Source: Oxalobacteraceae bacterium OTU3CINTB1 (GTDB taxonomy: Bacteria; Pseudomonadota; Gammaproteobacteria; Burkholderiales; Burkholderiaceae_D). From it: DNA of 64,000 nt. The notes below the pieces were generated by a model. That model was not told the origin of the DNA. It saw only the letters and a program-made list of their open reading frames with translations, and did not search any database. Shown piece by piece: positions 10,160-18,013 of this stretch; the stretch's first letter is position 1, and every line of letters starts with the position of its first letter. The stretch is taken from positions 1,116,001 to 1,180,000 of the forward strand of contig CP099652.1 of the NCBI GenBank assembly GCA_024123955.1. The letters are read 5' to 3'. Both the position numbers and the translations under genes were made by a program.

Positions 10160-10207
10160 TGCACAGACAAGGTGCGCGCATCTGTTGCGTTGCACCAAAA
10201 CAAAGCT
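10160..10207 (+). promoter_or_regulatory. Candidate NtrC enhancer: one full site and one half site
   Basis: TGCACAGACAAGGTGCG (10160-10176) matches the NtrC pattern TGCAC-N6-GGTGC. A second TGCACCA-type half site starts at 10191. If +1 is near 10310, set by the sigma-54 element, the centres fall near -142 and -111, almost the arrangement at E. coli glnAp2 (-140 and -108). Confidence 0.55.
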
Positions 10208-10283
10208 TGACGTGCCGCAAACACCACTCCCTGAAAACCCCGCATGAATCACTCTCATAGGAGAAGCTGCCTTTCGGCAAGGC

Positions 10284-10299
10284 TGGCCCGCTTATTGCA
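10284..10299 (+). promoter_or_regulatory. Sigma-54 (RpoN)-type promoter upstream of the TnsB-like gene
   Basis: TGGCCCGCTTATTGCA fits TGGCACG-N4-TTGCW with one change in the -24 block. It is followed at 10301-10314 by the near-palindrome ATGTGATAGCACAT over the expected start site, then a leader hairpin (GGCGC...GCGCC, ~10325-10345) before the 43-aa ORF. Confidence 0.65.
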
Positions 10300-10382
10300 T
10301 ATGTGATAGCACATCCCTATAAAAGGCGCGCCCGCCGAGGCGCCTCAACCTGGAGACAAGTCGTTTAGATCGGAGCATTGAG

Positions 10383-10514
10383 ATGACATCATTCAGGAAG
10401 CTGTGGAACATCTTTGTCGATTCGCTCAAGCCGCAGATGCTGCGCGAGCATAATCAGGCCGGCCCGTACGCCATCATCGTCGACAGCCGGCCATTCACCG
10501 TCAAGGGGCGCTAA
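10383..10514 (+). CDS. 43-aa ORF translationally coupled to the TnsB-like gene
   Basis: ATG 10383 has GGAG nine bases upstream. It encodes a 43-aa peptide starting MTSFRKLWNIFVDSLK and ending PFTVKGR. Its stop overlaps the next start by one base (TAATG at 10512), and AAGGGG inside it can serve as the RBS for the downstream gene. I do not recognise the peptide. It could be a regulatory leader or a remnant of a partner gene such as tnsA, which normally precedes tnsB in Tn7-like elements; nothing in its sequence proves that. Confidence 0.55.
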   Translation: MTSFRKLWNIFVDSLKPQMLREHNQAGPYAIIVDSRPFTVKGR

Positions 10515-12433
10515 TGCTACTGCGGAACGATCTGCTGCACTATACGCATCCGTCTCCGCGCACCGTCCGCATCTTGTGGATCGCTCCCGAGCAGAGCCAC
10601 GCCTATGTCTTCGACGTGGCGGCCCGCTCGGCCGATGTAGAACTCGTCCAACTGTCGGTGCTGCATGCCGACATCCGGGCCGGCCGCGCTTCGGTGCTGC
10701 CGGCCGACCCCTATCTGATGGTCGTCAGCCAGGACCTGCTGCCGGCCAAACACCTGCAACTGCGGGCGCGCGCCTGGGAAATCATCGAGCCGCTGGTGGC
10801 GCTGGAGCCGGGCATCTACGAGGCCCGCCAGCGCGGCCAGCTGATCGCCCGCGCCACCGGCGCCCACGGCGTCTCGCATCCCACCATCTACCGCTACCTG
10901 CGCCGCTACTGGCAGCGTGGCCAGACCCCGAACGCGCTGTTGCCCGATTACTGCAACTCGGGCGGCAAGGGCAAGGTGCGCCAGGCCTCGGCCGGCGTCA
11001 AGCGCGGACGCCCGCGCAAGAACGGCGCCGACGCCGGGCCGGGCCTGAACGCCGACGAGGAAATCCGCCGCACCTTCCGCGTCGCCATCGCCCGCTACGC
11101 CGCCGGCCACGCCAAGTTCTCGCGCCTGGGCGCCTATGAACAAATGCTCGACGAGTTCTTCGTCGAGCGCCGCATCGACGAAGCATCGGGCCGCGTGCTG
11201 ACCACGCCGGCCGGGCGCAGCGCCGTGCTGCCGACCTTCGGCCAGTTCAACTACTGGCTCGACCACGACGACGACCGTCCGCCCGAGGTGGCGCGCCGGG
11301 GCGACGGCGCGGCCGCGCCGTGGGGCCCCGCCACGCCCACCCCGTTCGCCACGCCGGCCTCGCTGGCCTCCCTGGCCGGCCAGCCGGCGGCGTTGGCGCC
11401 GCAAGCGTTGCCGCCGGGCCGGCCCGGCGCCGGTTTCTACCTCGACGCCGTCTGCGCCGAGGTGTGCCTGGTCTCGCGCGCCGACCGCCGGCAAGCGGTC
11501 GGCCGCCCGCGCATCTATCTGGCCGTCGATTCGTTCAGCCGCCTGGTCACCGGCGTCTACATCGGCCTGGGGCCGGCCAGCTGGCCGCAGGCGATGCTGG
11601 CGCTGGCCAACTGCGGCGCCGACAAACAGCGCTACAGCCAGCAGTTCGGCCGCCGCATCGAGCCGGCGCAGTGGCCGTGCCGCCACCTACCAGAAACCCT
11701 GTTCGCCAACGCCGCGCTGACGGCCGGCCGCGATGGCGGCGAGGGCGGCATGGACCCGGCCTTGCTGAATAACTTCAACCTGCGCTGCGTCGCCGTCGAC
11801 GACGGCCCGGGAGACTGGAAGGCGGTGCTGGAAAAGCGTTTCCGCCTGCTGGCGCCGAACGACGAGGGCGCGCCGTGCCGGCTCGACGGCGTGCTCGATC
11901 TGGAGCAGTTCACCCGCATCGTCATCGACTGCATCCTCTATTACAACAACCGCCACCCGCTGTCCCACGCCGGCAACGCCACCCCGCGCCAGCTGTGGGA
12001 CTGGGGCGTGGCGCACCGGGGCGGCAGCCTCAAAACCTATCCCGAGCACCTGATCCGCTGCAGCCTGATGCCGGTGGCGTCGGCGCAGGTCGGCGCCGAC
12101 GGCATCCGCCTGTTCGAAAGTACTTACACCTGCGCGCGCGCCATCAACGAGCGCTGGTTCGACCGCGCGCGCCTGCGCGGCCACTGGAGCGTCAAGGTCG
12201 CCTACGATCCGTCCAACCTGGACATGATCTACCTGCTCGATCCGGCTGCGCCGATGCAGTTCCACGCCTGCCACCTGGACGACGCCTGCGCCGCGCAGCG
12301 CCACCTGTCGGCCGAGGAAATCGCCCGCCTGCCGCGCGAGGCGGCGGCCTCCCCCGGGTCGTCCGCATCGTCAACATCGTCCGCGCCGTTGGCGCGCAGC
12401 GGCGCACCGGCCCTCGCCAGCTTCGCCGGCTGA
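10514..12433 (+). CDS. TnsB-like (Tn7-family) DDE transposase with D-to-N change, probably catalytically inactive
   Basis: 639 aa (Tn7 TnsB is about 700). Recognisable TnsB order: N-terminal domain with VRILWIAPEQSHAYVFD; helix-turn-helix around 115-135 (VSHPTIYRYLRRYW); rve core from ~305 (YLDAVCAEVCLVS, GRPRIYLAVDSFSRLVTG, LPETLFANAAL, DWKAVLEKRFR); Mu-type C-terminal beta domain ~515-590. Of the DDE triad, D311 and E440 are kept, but the second Asp (LADRG in TnsB) reads LFAN, giving N399. Asp-to-Asn at this site normally abolishes strand transfer. No tnsA, tnsC, tnsD/tniQ or clear transposon ends are nearby. It reads as a domesticated DNA-binding protein under nitrogen-type sigma-54 control. 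Confidence 0.8.
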   Translation: MLLRNDLLHYTHPSPRTVRILWIAPEQSHAYVFDVAARSADVELVQLSVLHADIRAGRASVLPADPYLMVVSQDLLPAKHLQLRARAWEIIEPLVALEPGIYEARQRGQLIARATGAHGVSHPTIYRYLRRYWQRGQTPNALLPDYCNSGGKGKVRQASAGVKRGRPRKNGADAGPGLNADEEIRRTFRVAIARYAAGHAKFSRLGAYEQMLDEFFVERRIDEASGRVLTTPAGRSAVLPTFGQFNYWLDHDDDRPPEVARRGDGAAAPWGPATPTPFATPASLASLAGQPAALAPQALPPGRPGAGFYLDAVCAEVCLVSRADRRQAVGRPRIYLAVDSFSRLVTGVYIGLGPASWPQAMLALANCGADKQRYSQQFGRRIEPAQWPCRHLPETLFANAALTAGRDGGEGGMDPALLNNFNLRCVAVDDGPGDWKAVLEKRFRLLAPNDEGAPCRLDGVLDLEQFTRIVIDCILYYNNRHPLSHAGNATPRQLWDWGVAHRGGSLKTYPEHLIRCSLMPVASAQVGADGIRLFESTYTCARAINERWFDRARLRGHWSVKVAYDPSNLDMIYLLDPAAPMQFHACHLDDACAAQRHLSAEEIARLPREAAASPGSSASSTSSAPLARSGAPALASFAG

Positions 12434-12754
12434 GACGCGGCCAGTCACCCGCGCCGCCGGCGGCGGTGCGGTCCAGCGTCGTGCATCCTCCCATCCCCGC
12501 TTTTTTATGTGCCACTTGCTGGTGCGCGGCGCCGCCGCGCGCCGTCTACCCGGCCGCCGGTCCCACCCGCGCGCGTCGCGCCGCGCCGCGAATAAAGTCC
12601 GTTTTACGCGAATAAAGTTTGTCGCCAGCCGCTTGCCGTCGCGGGTGTCCGGAGCGTACGCGGGGTCCATGTAAAAACATTGTTCGATAAAAGCGAGCCT
12701 TGCTCCACAAGGCTTGCCTTCGTTGTGAAGCATGTTTGTTTTGCTTGCTGCCCG
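12434..12754. other. Intergenic stretch with a paired direct repeat and an inverted repeat
   Basis: No gene is supported here. CGCGAATAAAGT occurs at 12587-12598 and again at 12607-12618, start to start 20 bp (two helical turns). A GCGAGCCTTG / CAAGGCTTGC inverted repeat with a 5-base spacer lies at 12693-12717, about 45 bp upstream of the -24 element at 12755, and could bind the activator of that promoter. Confidence 0.5.
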
Positions 12755-12770
12755 TGGCACGCGCCTTGCT
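12755..12770 (+). promoter_or_regulatory. Sigma-54 promoter of the amine oxidase operon
   Basis: TGGCACGCGCCTTGCT is a full match to the RpoN core TGGCACG-N4-TTGCW. Transcription would start near 12780-12783, which supports ATG 12833 as the true start of the next gene, since the ATG at 12782 would lie at or before +1. Confidence 0.8.
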
Positions 12771-12832
12771 AGATTGGAACTATGGGTAAGCAAGTCACCC
12801 AAGTTATTTCAGGCAGACTGGTGAGGAAACCG

Positions 12833-14440
12833 ATGGAAAGCAAAACAGTAAAACCGTTTAAACCGTTTAGTTCATTTACCCGTAGGGACTTTCTGTACCG
12901 GGCCGCCGCCGTCGGCGGCACCGGCCTGCTGTTAAACACCATGAACGCCTGGGGCATGGGCATCGGCTCGACGTCTTCCGCGCCGCCTGCGCTGAGCGGC
13001 AGCGGCAAAGGCAAGAAGGTGGTGATCCTCGGCGCCGGCCTGGCCGGACTGACCGCCGCCTTCGAGCTGGGCAAGCTCGGTTACCAGTGCCAGATCCTCG
13101 AGGCGCGCGATTTCGCCGGCGGCCGTTGCCAGACCGCCCGCAAGGGCTTCAGCCTGACCGAATTGGGCGGCGACAAACAGACCTGCGCCTTCGACGAGGG
13201 CCAGTACATCAACCACGGCCCGTGGCGCATCCCGCTGCACCACCAGTCGACCCTGCACTACACGCGCCTGTTCGAGGTGCCGCTGGAGGTGATGGTCAAC
13301 GAGAACGACCACTCCTATGTGTATTCCGAAAACGCCGGCCCCTTCGCCGGCAAGCGCCTGCGCATCAAGGAGGTCAAGGCCGACATGCGCGGCCATGTCG
13401 ACGAGATGCTGGCCAAGTCGATCAAGAACAACCAGCTCGACGCCGAGCTGACCGCCGACGACAAGCGCCTGCTGCTCGACTACCTGGCGCACGAGGGCCA
13501 GCTGGCCGGCGCCGACCTGAAATACAAGGGCCGCACCGGGCGCGGTTTCGCCGTCTATCCGGGCGCCGGCATGGAGCCGGGACCGGGCAAGCAATCCGAC
13601 CCGCTGGGCTTCAAGGAGCTGCTGGCCTCCAAACTGGGCAACGTCTACAGCGCGGTGCAGGACTTCCCGATGCAGGCGACCATGTTCCAGCCGGTCGGCG
13701 GCATGGACGCGATCCCGAAGGCGTTTGAAAAGCGCGTCGGCAAGACCATCCGCTACCGCGCCGAGGTGCAGACCATCCGCCAGAACGACAAGGGCGTGAC
13801 CATCGCGTTCAAGGACACCGCCACCGGCAAGGCCTCCAGCGTGACGGCCGACTACTGCCTGTGCACCATCCCGCTGTCGGTGCTGCGCCAGATCGACACC
13901 GATTTCTCGGACGCGTTCAAGAAGGCCGTCGCCACGGTCGCCTACGCGCCGGTCGGCAAGATCGGCCTGCAGATGAAGCGCCGCTTCTGGGAGGAGGACG
14001 ACAACATCTACGGCGGCCACGTGCTCACCGACCTCAAAGGCATCAACACCATCTCGATGCCGTCGTATGGCTGGCAGAAGAAGAAGGGCGTGCTGCTCGG
14101 TTACTACCAGTACCAGACGGCTGCCATCGAGGTCAGCGCGCTGACCCCGGCCGAGCGCGCCGAATTCGCCGTCGCCGCCGGCCAGAAGATCTTCCCGCAG
14201 TACCGCGACGAATACGAGAACGCGTTTTCGGTGGCGTGGCACCGCGTGCAGTACAACCTGGGCGGCTGGGCCGAGTGGACCGAGAAGACCCGCGCGGCCG
14301 CCTATCCGACCCTGCTCGAAGGCGAGGGCCGCATCATGCTGGCCGGCGAGCACCTGAGCTACCTGACCGGCTGGCAGGCCGGCGCCATCGAATCGGCGTG
14401 GCAGCAGATCGCCAGGATACACGCGAGGGCCAGCGCATGA
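12833..14440 (+). CDS. Tat-exported flavin monoamine oxidase family protein
   Basis: 535 aa. The twin-arginine signal (FTRRDFLYRAAAVGGTG) implies folded, FAD-loaded export to the periplasm. FAD site: VVILGAGLAGLTAAFELGKLGYQCQILEAR with GGRCQT; the C-terminal FAD motif is AGEHLSYLTGWQAGAIESAW. Family enzymes oxidise primary amines or amino acids to imines. ATG 12833 is chosen for its GAGGAAA RBS and the sigma-54 promoter position. It overlaps the cytochrome gene (ATGA), which suggests electrons pass to cytochrome c rather than only to oxygen. First gene of a three-gene operon. Confidence 0.88.
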   Translation: MESKTVKPFKPFSSFTRRDFLYRAAAVGGTGLLLNTMNAWGMGIGSTSSAPPALSGSGKGKKVVILGAGLAGLTAAFELGKLGYQCQILEARDFAGGRCQTARKGFSLTELGGDKQTCAFDEGQYINHGPWRIPLHHQSTLHYTRLFEVPLEVMVNENDHSYVYSENAGPFAGKRLRIKEVKADMRGHVDEMLAKSIKNNQLDAELTADDKRLLLDYLAHEGQLAGADLKYKGRTGRGFAVYPGAGMEPGPGKQSDPLGFKELLASKLGNVYSAVQDFPMQATMFQPVGGMDAIPKAFEKRVGKTIRYRAEVQTIRQNDKGVTIAFKDTATGKASSVTADYCLCTIPLSVLRQIDTDFSDAFKKAVATVAYAPVGKIGLQMKRRFWEEDDNIYGGHVLTDLKGINTISMPSYGWQKKKGVLLGYYQYQTAAIEVSALTPAERAEFAVAAGQKIFPQYRDEYENAFSVAWHRVQYNLGGWAEWTEKTRAAAYPTLLEGEGRIMLAGEHLSYLTGWQAGAIESAWQQIARIHARASA

Positions 14441-14868
14441 GGGACACGTTACTGAAGGCCGCGATGGTGATCGTGGCCGCCTTCGCGGCCGCCGCAACGG
14501 CCCCGTCGCAGGCGCAGGCGCCGGCTTCCACCACGGCGCCGGACGGCAAGGCGCTGTTCCTGAAAAACTGCGCGGCCTGCCACCAGGCCACCGGCAAGGG
14601 CATCCCCGGCGCGTTCCCGGCGCTGGCCGGCAGCAAATTCGTCACCGGCGACCACGCCGAAGTGGCCACGGTGCTGCTCAAGGGCCGCGGCGGCATGCCC
14701 GACTTCAGCGAGAACATCAGCGACGCCGATATGGCCGCGATTCTGACCTATGTGCGCGCCAGCTGGGGCAACAAGGCCGACGCGTTGACCGAGGCCGAGG
14801 TGCTCAAACTGCGCGACACGCTTGGCGTGGCCCATTTCGGCAGCGCCGAAATGTCGAACAAACACTGA
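14437..14868 (+). CDS. Periplasmic c-type cytochrome
   Basis: 143 aa with a Sec signal (to SQAQA). A single haem site CAACH lies near residue 47, and a likely axial Met is in GGMPDF. It is a small class I cytochrome c of the kind fused to or paired with alcohol and amine dehydrogenases. It starts inside the stop of the oxidase gene (ATGA, 14437-14440), so translation is coupled and it is the probable electron acceptor for that enzyme. Confidence 0.88.
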   Translation: MRDTLLKAAMVIVAAFAAAATAPSQAQAPASTTAPDGKALFLKNCAACHQATGKGIPGAFPALAGSKFVTGDHAEVATVLLKGRGGMPDFSENISDADMAAILTYVRASWGNKADALTEAEVLKLRDTLGVAHFGSAEMSNKH

Positions 14869-14902
14869 TTACCACTCTATACAACCCAAGGAAGACGAGA
14901 CC

Positions 14903-15445
14903 ATGACCAAAGCACTCACCAAATCCGCCACCGCTCTGTTGATCTCCGCCGCCGTGGCCCTGTTGTCGGCGTCGCCGGCGATGGCCGCCGCCAAGGCGCC
15001 GAAGGTGGAGGAGAAGGCGGAGATCGTGCGCCACAAGATTCCGGGGTCGGACTTCCCGATCGCGCTGGCCGTGACGATCCCGTCGACCGCCACCATCCAC
15101 TTCATCAGCGGCCAGGTGCCGGCGGTGATCGACAAGGCCGCCGCGCCGGACTCGCTGGCCGCCTTCGGCGACACCAAGGCGCAGTCCGAGACGGTGCTCA
15201 AGAAGATCAAGGAGATCCTCGAGGGCATGAAGCTGGAGATGTCGGACGTCGTCAAGATGACCGTCTACCTGGTCGGCGATCCGGCCAAGGGCGGCAAGGG
15301 CGACACCAAGGGCTTCATGGAAGCCTACACCCAGTACTTCGGCGGCACGCAGCCCAACCTGCCGGCGCGCGCCGTGGTGCAGGTGGCCGGCTTGAGCAAC
15401 CCTGGCTGGCTGGTCGAGATCGAGGTGGTCGCCGCCAAAAAATAA
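14903..15445 (+). CDS. RidA/YjgF-family protein with signal peptide
   Basis: 180 aa. ATG 14903 follows AAGGAAGACGAG and opens a Sec signal ending ASPAMAAAK. The body has the RidA fold wording: ATIHFISGQVPA, ILEGMKLEMSDVVKMTVYL and NLPARAVVQVAGL..GWLVEIEVVA. RidA proteins hydrolyse reactive imines/enamines; most are cytosolic, so an exported one placed after an amine oxidase suggests removal of imine product in the periplasm. The Arg in PARA matches the usual catalytic Arg position. Confidence 0.85.
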   Translation: MTKALTKSATALLISAAVALLSASPAMAAAKAPKVEEKAEIVRHKIPGSDFPIALAVTIPSTATIHFISGQVPAVIDKAAAPDSLAAFGDTKAQSETVLKKIKEILEGMKLEMSDVVKMTVYLVGDPAKGGKGDTKGFMEAYTQYFGGTQPNLPARAVVQVAGLSNPGWLVEIEVVAAKK

Positions 15446-15520: not shown

Positions 15521-18013
15521 ATGCATAAGGCCACACTCAAGATCGGCGTCGCAGCCGTGTTGTCCACCCTGGCGATCGGCGCCGCTTCTGCAGCCAATGC
15601 GGCAGCCAATGCGGCAGCCAATCCGGCCGACGCCGTCGATGCTGCCGTCGAAGCGGCAGCCGCCGCGCCCGACGCCGCGTCGGCCGGCTCGGTGATCGTC
15701 ACCGGCACCCGCTCGAGCGGCATGAAGGCCGAGAACAGCGCCTCGCCGATCCAGGTGCTCGACTCGGCCTCGCTGATGCGCACCGGCCAGCCGGACCTGA
15801 TCCAGGCGCTGGCGCAGAACCTGCCGTCGTTCACCGCGCAAGCCTTCGGCGGCGACACCGCCAACCTGACCTTGTCGGCCCGCCTGCGCGGCCTGAGCCC
15901 GAACAACACGCTGGTGCTGATCAACGGCAAACGCCGCCACGGCACCGCCAACCTGGCCGTGCTGGGCGGCCCGTACCAGGGCGGCGCCGCGGCCGACCTG
16001 AACTTCATTCCGGTGTCGGCCATCGACCATATCGAGGTGCTGCAGGACGGCGCTGCCGCCCAATACGGCTCCGACGCCATCGCCGGCGTGATCAACATCA
16101 TCCTCAAATCGAACGACCATGGCGGCACCGCCTCGGCCACCGGCGGCGGCTACTGGGACGGCGGCGGCAAGACCGTCGGCGGTTCGGCCAACGTCGGCTT
16201 CGAGCCGTTCAAGGACGCCTTCCTGAGCGTGACGGCCGAATCGAAGTACCACGACTTCAGCGACCGTGGCGGCATCGACCCGCGCCTGCTCGACGCCGGC
16301 AACCTGGCCGCCGCGCCGGGCATGACGTCGATCCCCGGCTACCCGTACCTGAACAAGATCCAGGGCGACGCCCAGTACCACCTGCAGGTGTTGGCGGCCA
16401 ACTTCGGCTGGGACGTGACCAAGGACGTGCAGATCTACAGCATCGCCACCTACGGCGAGAAGGTCGCGCGCGCCTACGAGAACTATCGCCTGCCGACCCG
16501 TATTCCGAAAATGTACCCGCAGGGCTTCTCGCCGAAGGAAAAGATCAACCAGAAGGACTTCGGCTGGACCGGCGGCGTCAAGGGCAAGCTGGCCGAGTGG
16601 AACCTGGACCTGAGCACCACCTACGGGCGTGACAAGTCCGAGATCGGCGTCGAGGACTCGGCCAACGCCTCGCTGTTCGCCGACACCGGCTTCTCGCCGA
16701 CGACCTTCAAGGCCGGCGCCTTCATCGCCAGCCAGCTCACTACCACGCTCGAGTCGAGCCGCGAATTCGACGTCGGCTGGAGCAAGCCGCTGACCTTCGC
16801 CGCCGGCGTCGAACACCGCATCGACAAGTACGAGATCCAGGCCGGCGACGCCGCCTCCCGCTACAAGGAGGGCTCGCAGTCGTATCCGGGCTTCTCGCTG
16901 ACCGACGCCGGCAGCCACCGCCGCACCAACAAGGCCGCCTACATCGACATCGCCGGCAATCCGATCAAGGATCTGACGGTCGACCTGGCGGGGCGCTACG
17001 AGCACTTCTCCGACTTCGGCAGCGCCAGGGTCGGCAAGCTGACCTCGCGCTACGAACTGACGCCGACGGCGGCCGTGCGCGGCACCTTCAGCAACGGCTT
17101 CCGCGCGCCGACCCTGGCCGAATCGTACTACTCGGCGACCAACGTCGGCCCGACCAGCGCCTTCGTGCAGCTGGCGCCCAATTCGCCGGGCGCGCGCCTG
17201 GTCGGCGTCAACGGCCTCAAACCGGAGGCGTCCACCAACCTCAGTGTCGGCATGGTGCTCAACCCGGCCAGCAATTTGAATATCACGTTCGACGTCTACC
17301 AGATCAAGATCCGCGACCGCATCGTCGGTTCCGGCGCCTTGTACGGCTCGGGCGGCGCGGTGAACTCGCCGGCCGTGACGGCGGCCATCATCGCCAACGG
17401 CAACGTGCTCGATAGCACCGTCAGCCAGACCGGCATCAACATCTTCTCGAACGCGGTCAACACCCGCAGCCGGGGACTGGAGTTCGTCACGACGCTGAAC
17501 GAGAACTACGGCGCCTACGGCCGCGTGGACTGGTCGATCGCGGCCAACTACAACAAGGTCGAAGTCACCAAGATCAACCAGGCGCCGACGCAGCTGCTGC
17601 CGCAAACCTTGCTCGACAAGACCGCCATCTCGAACCTGGAGACGGCCTCGCCGAAGATGCGCGTGAATCTGGGCGCGCTGTGGAAGATCGGCGACTGGAC
17701 CATCAACCTGCGCGAAGCGATCTACGGCAAATCGAACGACTACGGCAGCGAGGACGGCTCGGTCTATCACAAGACCGAGATCAAGGCCAAGGCGATCACC
17801 GATCTGGAGGTGGGATACAAGGTCAATCCGGCGTGGTCGGTGGCGGTGGGGGCCAACAATCTGTTCAACACCTACCCGAACGGCGTCAATCCGGCGCTGC
17901 TGGCCGACCAGCGCGCCGCGCTGGACAACGCGGCGGTGACGGTGCTGCCATCGTTCTCGCCGTTCGGCATCAACGGCGGATACTACTACGTGCGGGCCAA
18001 CTACAAGTGGTAA
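15521..18013 (+). CDS. TonB-dependent outer-membrane receptor
   Basis: 830 aa. The signal peptide is followed by an Ala/Asn tract encoded by near-identical 12-base repeats (~15592-15624). Plug domain: VIVTGTRSSG, then LNFIPVSAIDHIEVLQDGAA and YGSDAIAGVINIILK. Barrel strands follow, ending in an aromatic YVRANYKW terminus. It lies 75 bp after the RidA gene and may belong to the same operon, which would make it an importer of amine-containing or related compounds; the ligand is not readable. GGGGATTT serves as RBS. Confidence 0.9.
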   Translation: MHKATLKIGVAAVLSTLAIGAASAANAAANAAANPADAVDAAVEAAAAAPDAASAGSVIVTGTRSSGMKAENSASPIQVLDSASLMRTGQPDLIQALAQNLPSFTAQAFGGDTANLTLSARLRGLSPNNTLVLINGKRRHGTANLAVLGGPYQGGAAADLNFIPVSAIDHIEVLQDGAAAQYGSDAIAGVINIILKSNDHGGTASATGGGYWDGGGKTVGGSANVGFEPFKDAFLSVTAESKYHDFSDRGGIDPRLLDAGNLAAAPGMTSIPGYPYLNKIQGDAQYHLQVLAANFGWDVTKDVQIYSIATYGEKVARAYENYRLPTRIPKMYPQGFSPKEKINQKDFGWTGGVKGKLAEWNLDLSTTYGRDKSEIGVEDSANASLFADTGFSPTTFKAGAFIASQLTTTLESSREFDVGWSKPLTFAAGVEHRIDKYEIQAGDAASRYKEGSQSYPGFSLTDAGSHRRTNKAAYIDIAGNPIKDLTVDLAGRYEHFSDFGSARVGKLTSRYELTPTAAVRGTFSNGFRAPTLAESYYSATNVGPTSAFVQLAPNSPGARLVGVNGLKPEASTNLSVGMVLNPASNLNITFDVYQIKIRDRIVGSGALYGSGGAVNSPAVTAAIIANGNVLDSTVSQTGINIFSNAVNTRSRGLEFVTTLNENYGAYGRVDWSIAANYNKVEVTKINQAPTQLLPQTLLDKTAISNLETASPKMRVNLGALWKIGDWTINLREAIYGKSNDYGSEDGSVYHKTEIKAKAITDLEVGYKVNPAWSVAVGANNLFNTYPNGVNPALLADQRAALDNAAVTVLPSFSPFGINGGYYYVRANYKW

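Follow-up and report, generated by a model that had tools for sequence, protein, structure and literature searches.

Plant and animal DNA transposases that were domesticated into transcription factors are well described, and among bacterial regulators TldR descends from TnpB. RpoN (sigma-54) promoters have their own requirements: the polymerase needs an AAA+ activator, IHF-type architectural factors act at such promoters, and the glnAp2 layout places NtrC-type boxes upstream of the -24/-12 element. Here we describe a locus at which these themes may meet, in a 64,000-nucleotide stretch (the window) of contig CP099652.1 from Oxalobacteraceae bacterium OTU3CINTB1. A TnsB homologue at 10514–12433, named tnsBd here (its product TnsBd), is best read as a domesticated TnsB under NtrC/RpoN control, serving as a dedicated DNA-binding co-regulator of the promoter of the amine-oxidase unit next to it. 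From the sequence comparisons below we put the probability that TnsBd is a non-catalytic, nitrogen-controlled regulator of that promoter, in either direction of effect, at roughly 0.7. These comparisons support a first-pass annotation, made from the letters alone, that suggested a transposase turned into a regulator or nucleoid protein made under nitrogen limitation.

A TnsB homologue with a lost catalytic triad

By sequence, the top solved relative of TnsBd is Tn7 TnsB (7pik, E = 2.7e-63), query residues 61–603 aligning with 56–586 of the 703-residue chain and no alignment extending past residue 586. An AlphaFold model built with 37 homologues (mean predicted local distance difference test score, pLDDT, 78) places the RNase H-like and C-terminal parts mostly above 90 and residues 138–178 below 50; searched with Foldseek, this predicted model again has 7pik as its best PDB match (E = 6.6e-39). 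The annotation's description of a protein that is TnsB-like through its domains therefore stands. Of the Pfam domains only the Mu-type C-terminal one exceeds its cut-off on TnsBd, AT_hook staying below its own, and NCBIfam has no above-cut-off match; the precomputed Pfam entry PF27135 tags both the full-length form and the short form described below.

The triad positions are occupied by D311, N399 and E440, as first reported, and the same columns read D, D, E in four other TnsBs of the family (two of the four being near-copies). We surveyed 121 sequences, TnsBd plus the best 120 of 337 matches, and met an intact triad (D-D-E or D-D-D) in none; one E-D-E row and one D-D-G row come closest. None of the three catalytic positions is constant, with A, S, P, H and T among the replacements, giving 32 distinct triplets. 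Asparagine conservation had been proposed as a check; D-N-E stands in 45 rows. The same sequences include no intact-DDE orthologue inside a mobile element, intact family TnsBs belonging to separate, distant Tn7-like loci. By these alignments TnsBd is a Tn7 TnsB homologue predicted to lack a working catalytic site.

The protein nevertheless appears to be maintained. Ratios of non-synonymous to synonymous substitution (dN/dS; Nei–Gojobori) span 0.02–0.40 in the N-terminal, DNA-binding, RNase H and C-terminal parts, computed over 18 chosen pairs (some with a common member) and covering these four domains, with the variable linker and tail excluded. Conservation is best in residues 135–180 (25 of 46 columns invariant) and 76–134 (22 of 59), and in residues 181–253 is no higher than in the C-terminal part. 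An RGRPRK stretch resembling an AT-hook core, beside the helix-turn-helix part, is invariant in 37 of 37 rows. For active TnsBs, PMC9527255 describes the DDE domain as the best-conserved module and the DNA-binding domains as divergent. With a fixed locus, purifying selection and, by prediction, lost catalysis, tnsBd has the marks of a domesticated transposase.

Nitrogen-type promoters and Tn7-end-type sites

Upstream of tnsBd lie an RpoN -24/-12 element and two NtrC-type sites (Table 1), named by their likeness to the E. coli consensus sequences (NtrC TGCACCAnnnTGGTGCA, RpoN TGGCACnnTTnTTGC; PMC8743547). The annotation had named the RpoN element and put the NtrC-type sites near -142 and -111, which agrees with the centres given in the table; the second site is good in one half only. 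An RpoN score of at least 10/12 is found upstream of tnsBd at 49 of 51 loci (48 of 50 genes, L022 and L031 being one gene), compared with 2.6% of shuffles that move two-base blocks, and the two lower-scoring loci (L041, L051) have weaker candidates in the usual position. The NtrC-type palindrome recurs with at most one mismatch at 36 of 51 loci (3% of shuffles) and the half-site TGCACCAAAA at 41 (0.6%). Among a further 13 tnsBd genes (L080–L092, mostly from genus g43), 12 have an RpoN score of at least 10. The RpoN promoter is thus kept with tnsBd in all four genera examined (g1, g28, g36 and g43), DNA-binding-only forms included, and the loss of linkage that the annotation had named as a refutation is not seen.

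Distances from NtrC-type site to -24 step by ~10.5 bp (p ~0.0014 for each of two site sets, using hand-typed positions that omit one window value, the duplicate gene L031 and three palindrome rows, uncorrected for kinship). In the 6.87 Mb genome of OTU3CINTB1, TGCAC-N7-GTGC followed by TGGC-N7-TTGC occurs once here (gap 82–112) and once elsewhere (gap 40–70), in a search over these two ranges of gap. The other occurrence (L107, ~4.506 Mb) stands ahead of the UreD and UreA urease genes and is a plausible positive control for a nitrogen promoter. Taken together, the predicted NtrC/RpoN-type promoter of tnsBd, a -24/-12 element with upstream NtrC-type boxes, is conserved.

In the window tnsBd lies between deaD, a DEAD-box helicase gene identified by eye, and the amine-oxidase unit; none of the Tn7 partner genes (tnsA, tnsC, tniQ) adjoins it, as the annotation had said of tnsA/C/D. 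Gene and unit travel together. Of 53 genomes of the genus (37 from a 61-genome set plus 16 from a family-wide set), 39 have both tnsBd and the oxidase (E<=1e-150) and 13 have neither; G017 is the one genome with tnsBd only, and none has only the oxidase. Six of the 13 were read. In each of them tblastn detects nothing of the unit across the 8-kb stretch that holds deaD, and downstream of deaD comes a homologue of the esterase found after the TonB receptor in the window (L138 has a 179-aa open reading frame, ORF, in between). On the deaD tree the joint absence needs two changes. The oxidase RpoN element scores at least 10 at all 29 discovery loci, all 14 held-out loci and four of seven oxidase loci without tnsBd; the unit may thus already have been under nitrogen-regulated RpoN control when TnsBd was added.

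In the intergenic region between tnsBd and the oxidase lies a pair of predicted TnsB-type sites with the core AA(C/T)AAAGT. These direct repeats 20 bp apart (12589–12623) were overlooked in the first-pass claim of no clear ends, though they do not border an element. Across 43 oxidase-promoter loci with tnsBd (29 discovery plus 14 held-out), the core is present in the oxidase RpoN promoter at 41, versus none of the seven without tnsBd (Fisher p = 3.6e-7, kinship uncorrected). It lies upstream of the oxidase in 27 of the 29 discovery and all 14 held-out loci (0.17 expected from shuffles), in forward orientation at 40 of the 43, inverted at 14 and in both orientations at 13; a forward pair spaced 19–21 bp occurs at 14. 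The sites persist while much of the surrounding sequence changes (partly by eye).

The core resembles transposon ends. At an intact-looking Tn7-like locus of the family (L098/L099), three AAA(C/T)AATAAAGT(C/T)TGACAA repeats stand exactly 20 bp apart, and the Tn7 right end contains ACAATAAAGTCTTAAACT (a primer in PMC1475584). L098 and L099, from two genera, are Tn7-like loci beside a glmS-like gene (by eye); their proteins hardly differ, and both carry these three repeats. A matrix of end-type repeats is only partly independent of the window: a motif-blind repeat search re-found the L098/L099 repeats, and the Tn7 end came from the paper just cited. It scores at least 13 at 31 places within the 7,760 bp upstream of the oxidase genes (in 23 of the 29 regions) and at 31 places in 705,280 bp from elsewhere at these loci, a 91-fold difference in density. 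A score of at least 10 is reached at 12 of 14 held-out loci and at three of the seven loci without tnsBd, none of the three with the core. At a loose threshold of 6, oxidase upstream regions have 100 matches versus 35 in shuffles, so single weak TnsB-type sites mean little.

Two other interpretations of the sites were set aside. Taking tnsBd and the unit as a transposon with cargo finds no inverted end arrays flanking an element in the window and no matrix match of at least 10 near the 18-kb outer border. The annotation had offered a regulator or a nucleoid protein; AATAAAGTYYGT has just three copies in the genome, the two sites in the adjoining promoter and one inside an ORF at 3.13 Mb, and a local regulator therefore fits better than a nucleoid protein.

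The elements of the oxidase promoter keep a fixed order. An NtrC-type box of at least 10/14 within 330 bp upstream of the -24 is present at 35 of 43 loci (5.1 expected from shuffles), one of at least 11/14 at 17 (0.6 expected), and at oxidase loci without tnsBd a box of at least 10 occurs in three of seven (1.3 expected). A box and a forward core occur together at 32 loci, and in all 32 every forward core falls downstream of the best box, between it and the -24/-12. The 35 distinct forward-core positions have a period of 10.5–11 bp relative to -24; R is 0.43 at 10.5 bp, which 0 of 10,000 random sets reached in a scripted comparison, and 0.54 at 10.75 bp, kinship uncorrected. Where inverted cores occur they are never farther out than forward ones (14 of 14 loci). 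Two oxidase loci without tnsBd, L111 and L113, have NtrC boxes at 13 of 14 consensus bases.

The tnsBd promoter itself has a TnsB-type matrix match at 10197–10211, overlapping the second NtrC-type site. Scores of at least 13 occur in 7 of 48 tnsBd promoters (0.5 expected), and a 280-bp upstream scan gave 25 matches against 24 in shuffles, promoters beyond the small ORF described below falling outside it. Such matches are confounded with the NtrC box, and so autoregulation by TnsBd through this match is left as a possibility.

Features of the locus, short forms and a second locus

Table 1. Features of the tnsBd–oxidase region (window positions)
Feature	Position	Strand	Basis or remark
NtrC-type palindrome TGCACAGACAAGGTGCG	10160-10176	+	Centre ~-141; consensus from PMC8743547
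Second NtrC-type site TGCACCAAAACAAAGCT	10191-10207	+	Left half alone good; 31 bp downstream of first; centre ~-110
RpoN (sigma-54) -24/-12 element TGGCCCGCTTATTGCA	10284-10299	+	Conserved across orthologous loci
Small ORF, 43 aa (MTSFRKLW...VDSRPF...)	10383-10514	+	Stop overlaps tnsBd start (TAATG)
tnsBd, domesticated TnsB homologue, predicted catalytically dead, 639 aa	10514-12433	+	ORF, structure match, triad D311 N399 E440
Weak NtrC-type box TGCCACTTGCTGGTGCG (10/14)	12510-12526	+	Upstream of TnsB-type sites
TnsB-type site 1 CGAATAAAGTCCGTT	12589-12603	+	Core and matrix match (predicted)
TnsB-type site 2 CGAATAAAGTTTGTC	12609-12623	+	Exactly 20 bp from site 1 (predicted)
Weak inverted TnsB-type match	12672-12686	-	Matrix score 8.0, a level shuffles also attain
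RpoN -24/-12 element of amine-oxidase unit TGGCACGCGCCTTGCT (12/12)	12755-12770	+	Score
Flavin amine oxidase ORF	12782-14440	+	PF01593, E=1.4e-47; true start probably downstream, near 12833 (by eye)
Cytochrome c (start by eye)	14437-14868	+	PF13442
RidA/L-PSP family protein	14822-15445	+	PF01042; likely to start near 14894 (by eye)
TonB-dependent receptor, last gene of co-travelling unit	15521-18013	+	PF00593, PF07715

Read from 12833 onward, the oxidase N-terminus has a twin-arginine-like RRDFLYRA (by eye), which suggests a periplasmic enzyme. The small ORF between promoter and tnsBd has relatives in 18 loci, window included, with a distant one in L023, and belongs to part of the genus only; it is not seen where the promoter sits close to tnsBd. 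As a piece of a known family it was rejected, having no Pfam or NCBIfam match.

TnsBd is matched in 29 of 61 genomes (own, 36 same-genus and 24 same-order), all 29 from the same genus, one of which (G005) has only a different TnsB at 26% identity. Family-wide, 55 of 294 genomes match at E<=1e-20, several merely through other TnsBs at ~30–36% identity; these family-wide searches, for tnsBd and oxidase alike, scored four candidates per genome, so single absences are less certain, and they agree with other searches where the two overlap. The genome of OTU3CINTB1 also holds a separate Tn7-like set (L101, ~649–655 kb of contig C1) whose tnsB is split in two ORFs. The tnsBd frame is uninterrupted in nearly all genomes of the genus and broken into two ORFs in G027 and G340.

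Most matches in g28, g36 and g43 span only about residues 1–250 to 1–330. Ten of ten fetched g28/g36 loci have DNA-binding-only ORFs of ~250–310 aa, covering residues 1–252 to 1–266, with the catalytic part gone. Named matches to the full-length form come from Duganella, Rugamonas, Pseudoduganella and Janthinobacterium, and to the short form from Massilia and Telluria; the carriers are thus soil-dwelling members of the Duganella/Massilia group. Protein searches admit candidates of 0.55–1.75 times the query length, so that a long query cannot return the short form, nor the reverse, and the relative commonness of the two is not readable from them.

Among 41 loci with flanks (40 plus the window), the amine-oxidase unit lies downstream of tnsBd in 29 and deaD upstream in 22; eight of the 29, in g28 and g43, lack deaD and carry the short form. 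G017 (L070) and 11 loci in g36 and g43 that we call locus B make up the remaining 12. At locus B a LytTR-like regulator and an acyltransferase lie nearby, often with a phasin as well (all identified by eye except the L080 phasin, which matches PF09361), and the tnsBd copies have the same type of promoter as elsewhere. The locus-B copies are DNA-binding-only (L074–L077, L079, L080, L084, L085, L087, L089 and L091), and some g43 genomes carry two tnsBd copies at two loci. A conserved ACGTGTTCAAGTCGGCAACGTT-like stretch lies upstream of the locus-B copies in several g36 members. These copies may have a role linked to the phasin gene beside them.

Possible action of TnsBd, rival readings and known systems

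The order of events that we propose begins with nitrogen limitation, under which phosphorylated NtrC at 10160–10207 would activate the RpoN promoter at 10284 and TnsBd would be made, as the conserved sites suggest. TnsBd would then bind the retained AA(C/T)AAAGT sites in the oxidase-unit promoter, between the NtrC-type box and the -24/-12; we base this step on the identity of the sites, on their spacing and on their co-occurrence with tnsBd. Both the expression under nitrogen limitation and the DNA binding are predictions. With its triad lost, TnsBd would neither cut nor join DNA. In the last and weakest step, at about even odds with its rivals, TnsBd would bend or bridge the DNA so that the NtrC–RpoN loop forms properly, and the resulting feed-forward loop would turn on amine scavenging. 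We favour an architectural helper because of the site placement, the helical phase and the invariant RGRPRK beside the helix-turn-helix part. A more elaborate version, which we regard as rather doubtful, has TnsBd synapse inward-facing end-type sites inside the promoter and so loop the NtrC enhancer to the RpoN polymerase. The arrangement it calls for, forward sites upstream and inverted ones nearer -24, is clearest in L127; with both orientations in 13 of 43 loci, TnsBd may still pair end-like sites. If true, a nitrogen-controlled switch of transcription would have arisen from a transpososome-like paired-end complex.

Several observations weigh against TnsBd as a regulator of the oxidase promoter. 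It has no AAA+ activator part, and so could aid or hinder NtrC but not replace it. The NtrC-type box near the window's oxidase is weak (10/14), and L073 and L092 have tnsBd but no core site. The pairing of gene and unit is looser outside the genus: 17 genomes of other genera have the oxidase, 11 of them with a tnsBd-type match and six without, 13 more (11 g36, 2 g43) have such a match but no oxidase, and G017 within the genus carries tnsBd without it. No AATAAAG lies within ~600 bp of the 11 locus-B copies or the G017 gene, where TnsBd should therefore have another role. Nor is the end-type site general to family TnsBs, six of nine such loci (L097, L100, L101 and L103–L105, the genome's other TnsB included) having no AATAAAGT array. 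Because the window is where the motif was first spotted, an independent test comes from the 14 held-out loci alone; four of the nine matrix training sites (those of L102) were chosen by heptamer with no repeat search; the seven oxidase loci without tnsBd are more distant (61–69% identity), L108 and L110 without an RpoN anchor; and all statistics ignore kinship, with a comparison that spans several genera.

The main rival to an architectural helper keeps the first two steps and reverses the third: TnsBd would be a repressor or attenuator, hindering the NtrC-to-promoter loop or the polymerase and so limiting amine oxidation. This is possible, if not what we favour, since the conservation of the sites would be identical and inverted cores near -24 in several loci (-32 to -44 by core position) could block polymerase. 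Inverted cores occur in just 14 of 43 loci, however, and the conserved phase to -24 fits looping at least equally well. The strong NtrC boxes of L111 and L113, where TnsBd is missing, compare with a best of 12/14 where it is present, which fits partial dependence on TnsBd; this argument is weak, as four of the seven tnsBd-less loci have no box of at least 10. It is unlikely that AA(C/T)AAAGT belongs to another transcription factor, with TnsBd acting elsewhere, globally or in a nucleoid-like manner. The missing AATAAAG at locus B and G017, and the fact that site binding by TnsBd is a prediction, would agree with this, but the core equals that of the Tn7 end, core and 20-bp period together equal the end repeats of a Tn7-like locus, the core is missing upstream of all seven oxidase genes without TnsBd, and AATAAAGTYYGT is rare in the genome.

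That tnsBd and the sites are the decaying remains of an old Tn7-like element with amine-oxidase cargo, with nothing functional left, we consider improbable. Drifting catalytic residues, the interrupted genes of G027 and G340 and the joint absence of tnsBd and unit in the loci read are what decay would leave; dN/dS well below 1 in all four domains measured, intact frames in nearly all genomes of the genus, a promoter kept in 49 of 51 loci and sites that lie between two genes, away from the outer borders and persisting amid changing sequence, are not. Least credible of all is a still-active transposase, or a helper of the genome's other Tn7-like gene set: L101 does encode TnsA-, TniB- and TniQ-type proteins, but all catalytic positions of TnsBd vary, synteny is conserved in the genus and the match to TnsB ends at residue 586 of 703.

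We regard the co-travel of tnsBd with the oxidase unit, the end-type core in the oxidase promoter and the position of the sites between NtrC box and -24/-12 as new. Among the titles and abstract openings listed from open-licence papers there was neither a bacterial DDE transposase recruited as a regulator nor a description of this system, which is weak evidence of absence; the annotation knew of none. A term search of the main text of a review of transposase recruitment in prokaryotes (PMC8987985) finds no mention of TnsB. Several stages can be seen together: a full-length protein predicted to be dead, genes that are interrupted, a protein reduced to its DNA-binding part, a target promoter bearing end-type sites, and relatives whose oxidase has neither TnsBd nor sites. 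With them, the way in which recognition of transposon ends may turn into regulation of a promoter can be tested directly, and natural non-catalytic TnsB variants would be useful for studying end recognition in Tn7 and CRISPR-associated transposons.

Among known systems, Tn7 TnsB (7pik) is the nearest, with homology over residues 61–603, RNase H-like and Mu-type C-terminal parts and a RYWQRGQTPNAL-PDY-NSG stretch common to both, and the Tn7 right end has AATAAAGTC in common with the candidate TnsBd sites. TnsBd differs in its lost triad, its lack of tnsA/C/D neighbours, its fixed synteny within the genus and its RpoN/NtrC-type promoter. The Tn7-like L098/L099 of the same family have the three end-type repeats with core AATAAAGT(C/T)TG and a 20-bp period, but also D, D, E and, in L098, a TnsA-domain neighbour; DNA-binding regions of TnsBd and the family TnsBs (L097 and L100 included) are only 19–39% identical. 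Like glnAp2 and the urease promoter, the tnsBd promoter has NtrC-type boxes upstream of a -24/-12, elements that here drive a former transposase. An action site between enhancer and promoter is what the proposal has in common with IHF-type factors, to which TnsBd is unrelated; it has one likely target, and bending by it is a proposal. TldR offers a parallel, a transposon-borne nuclease turned bacterial transcription factor. It is guided by RNA (PMC13418256), whereas TnsBd, derived from a DDE transposase, would recognise DNA itself.

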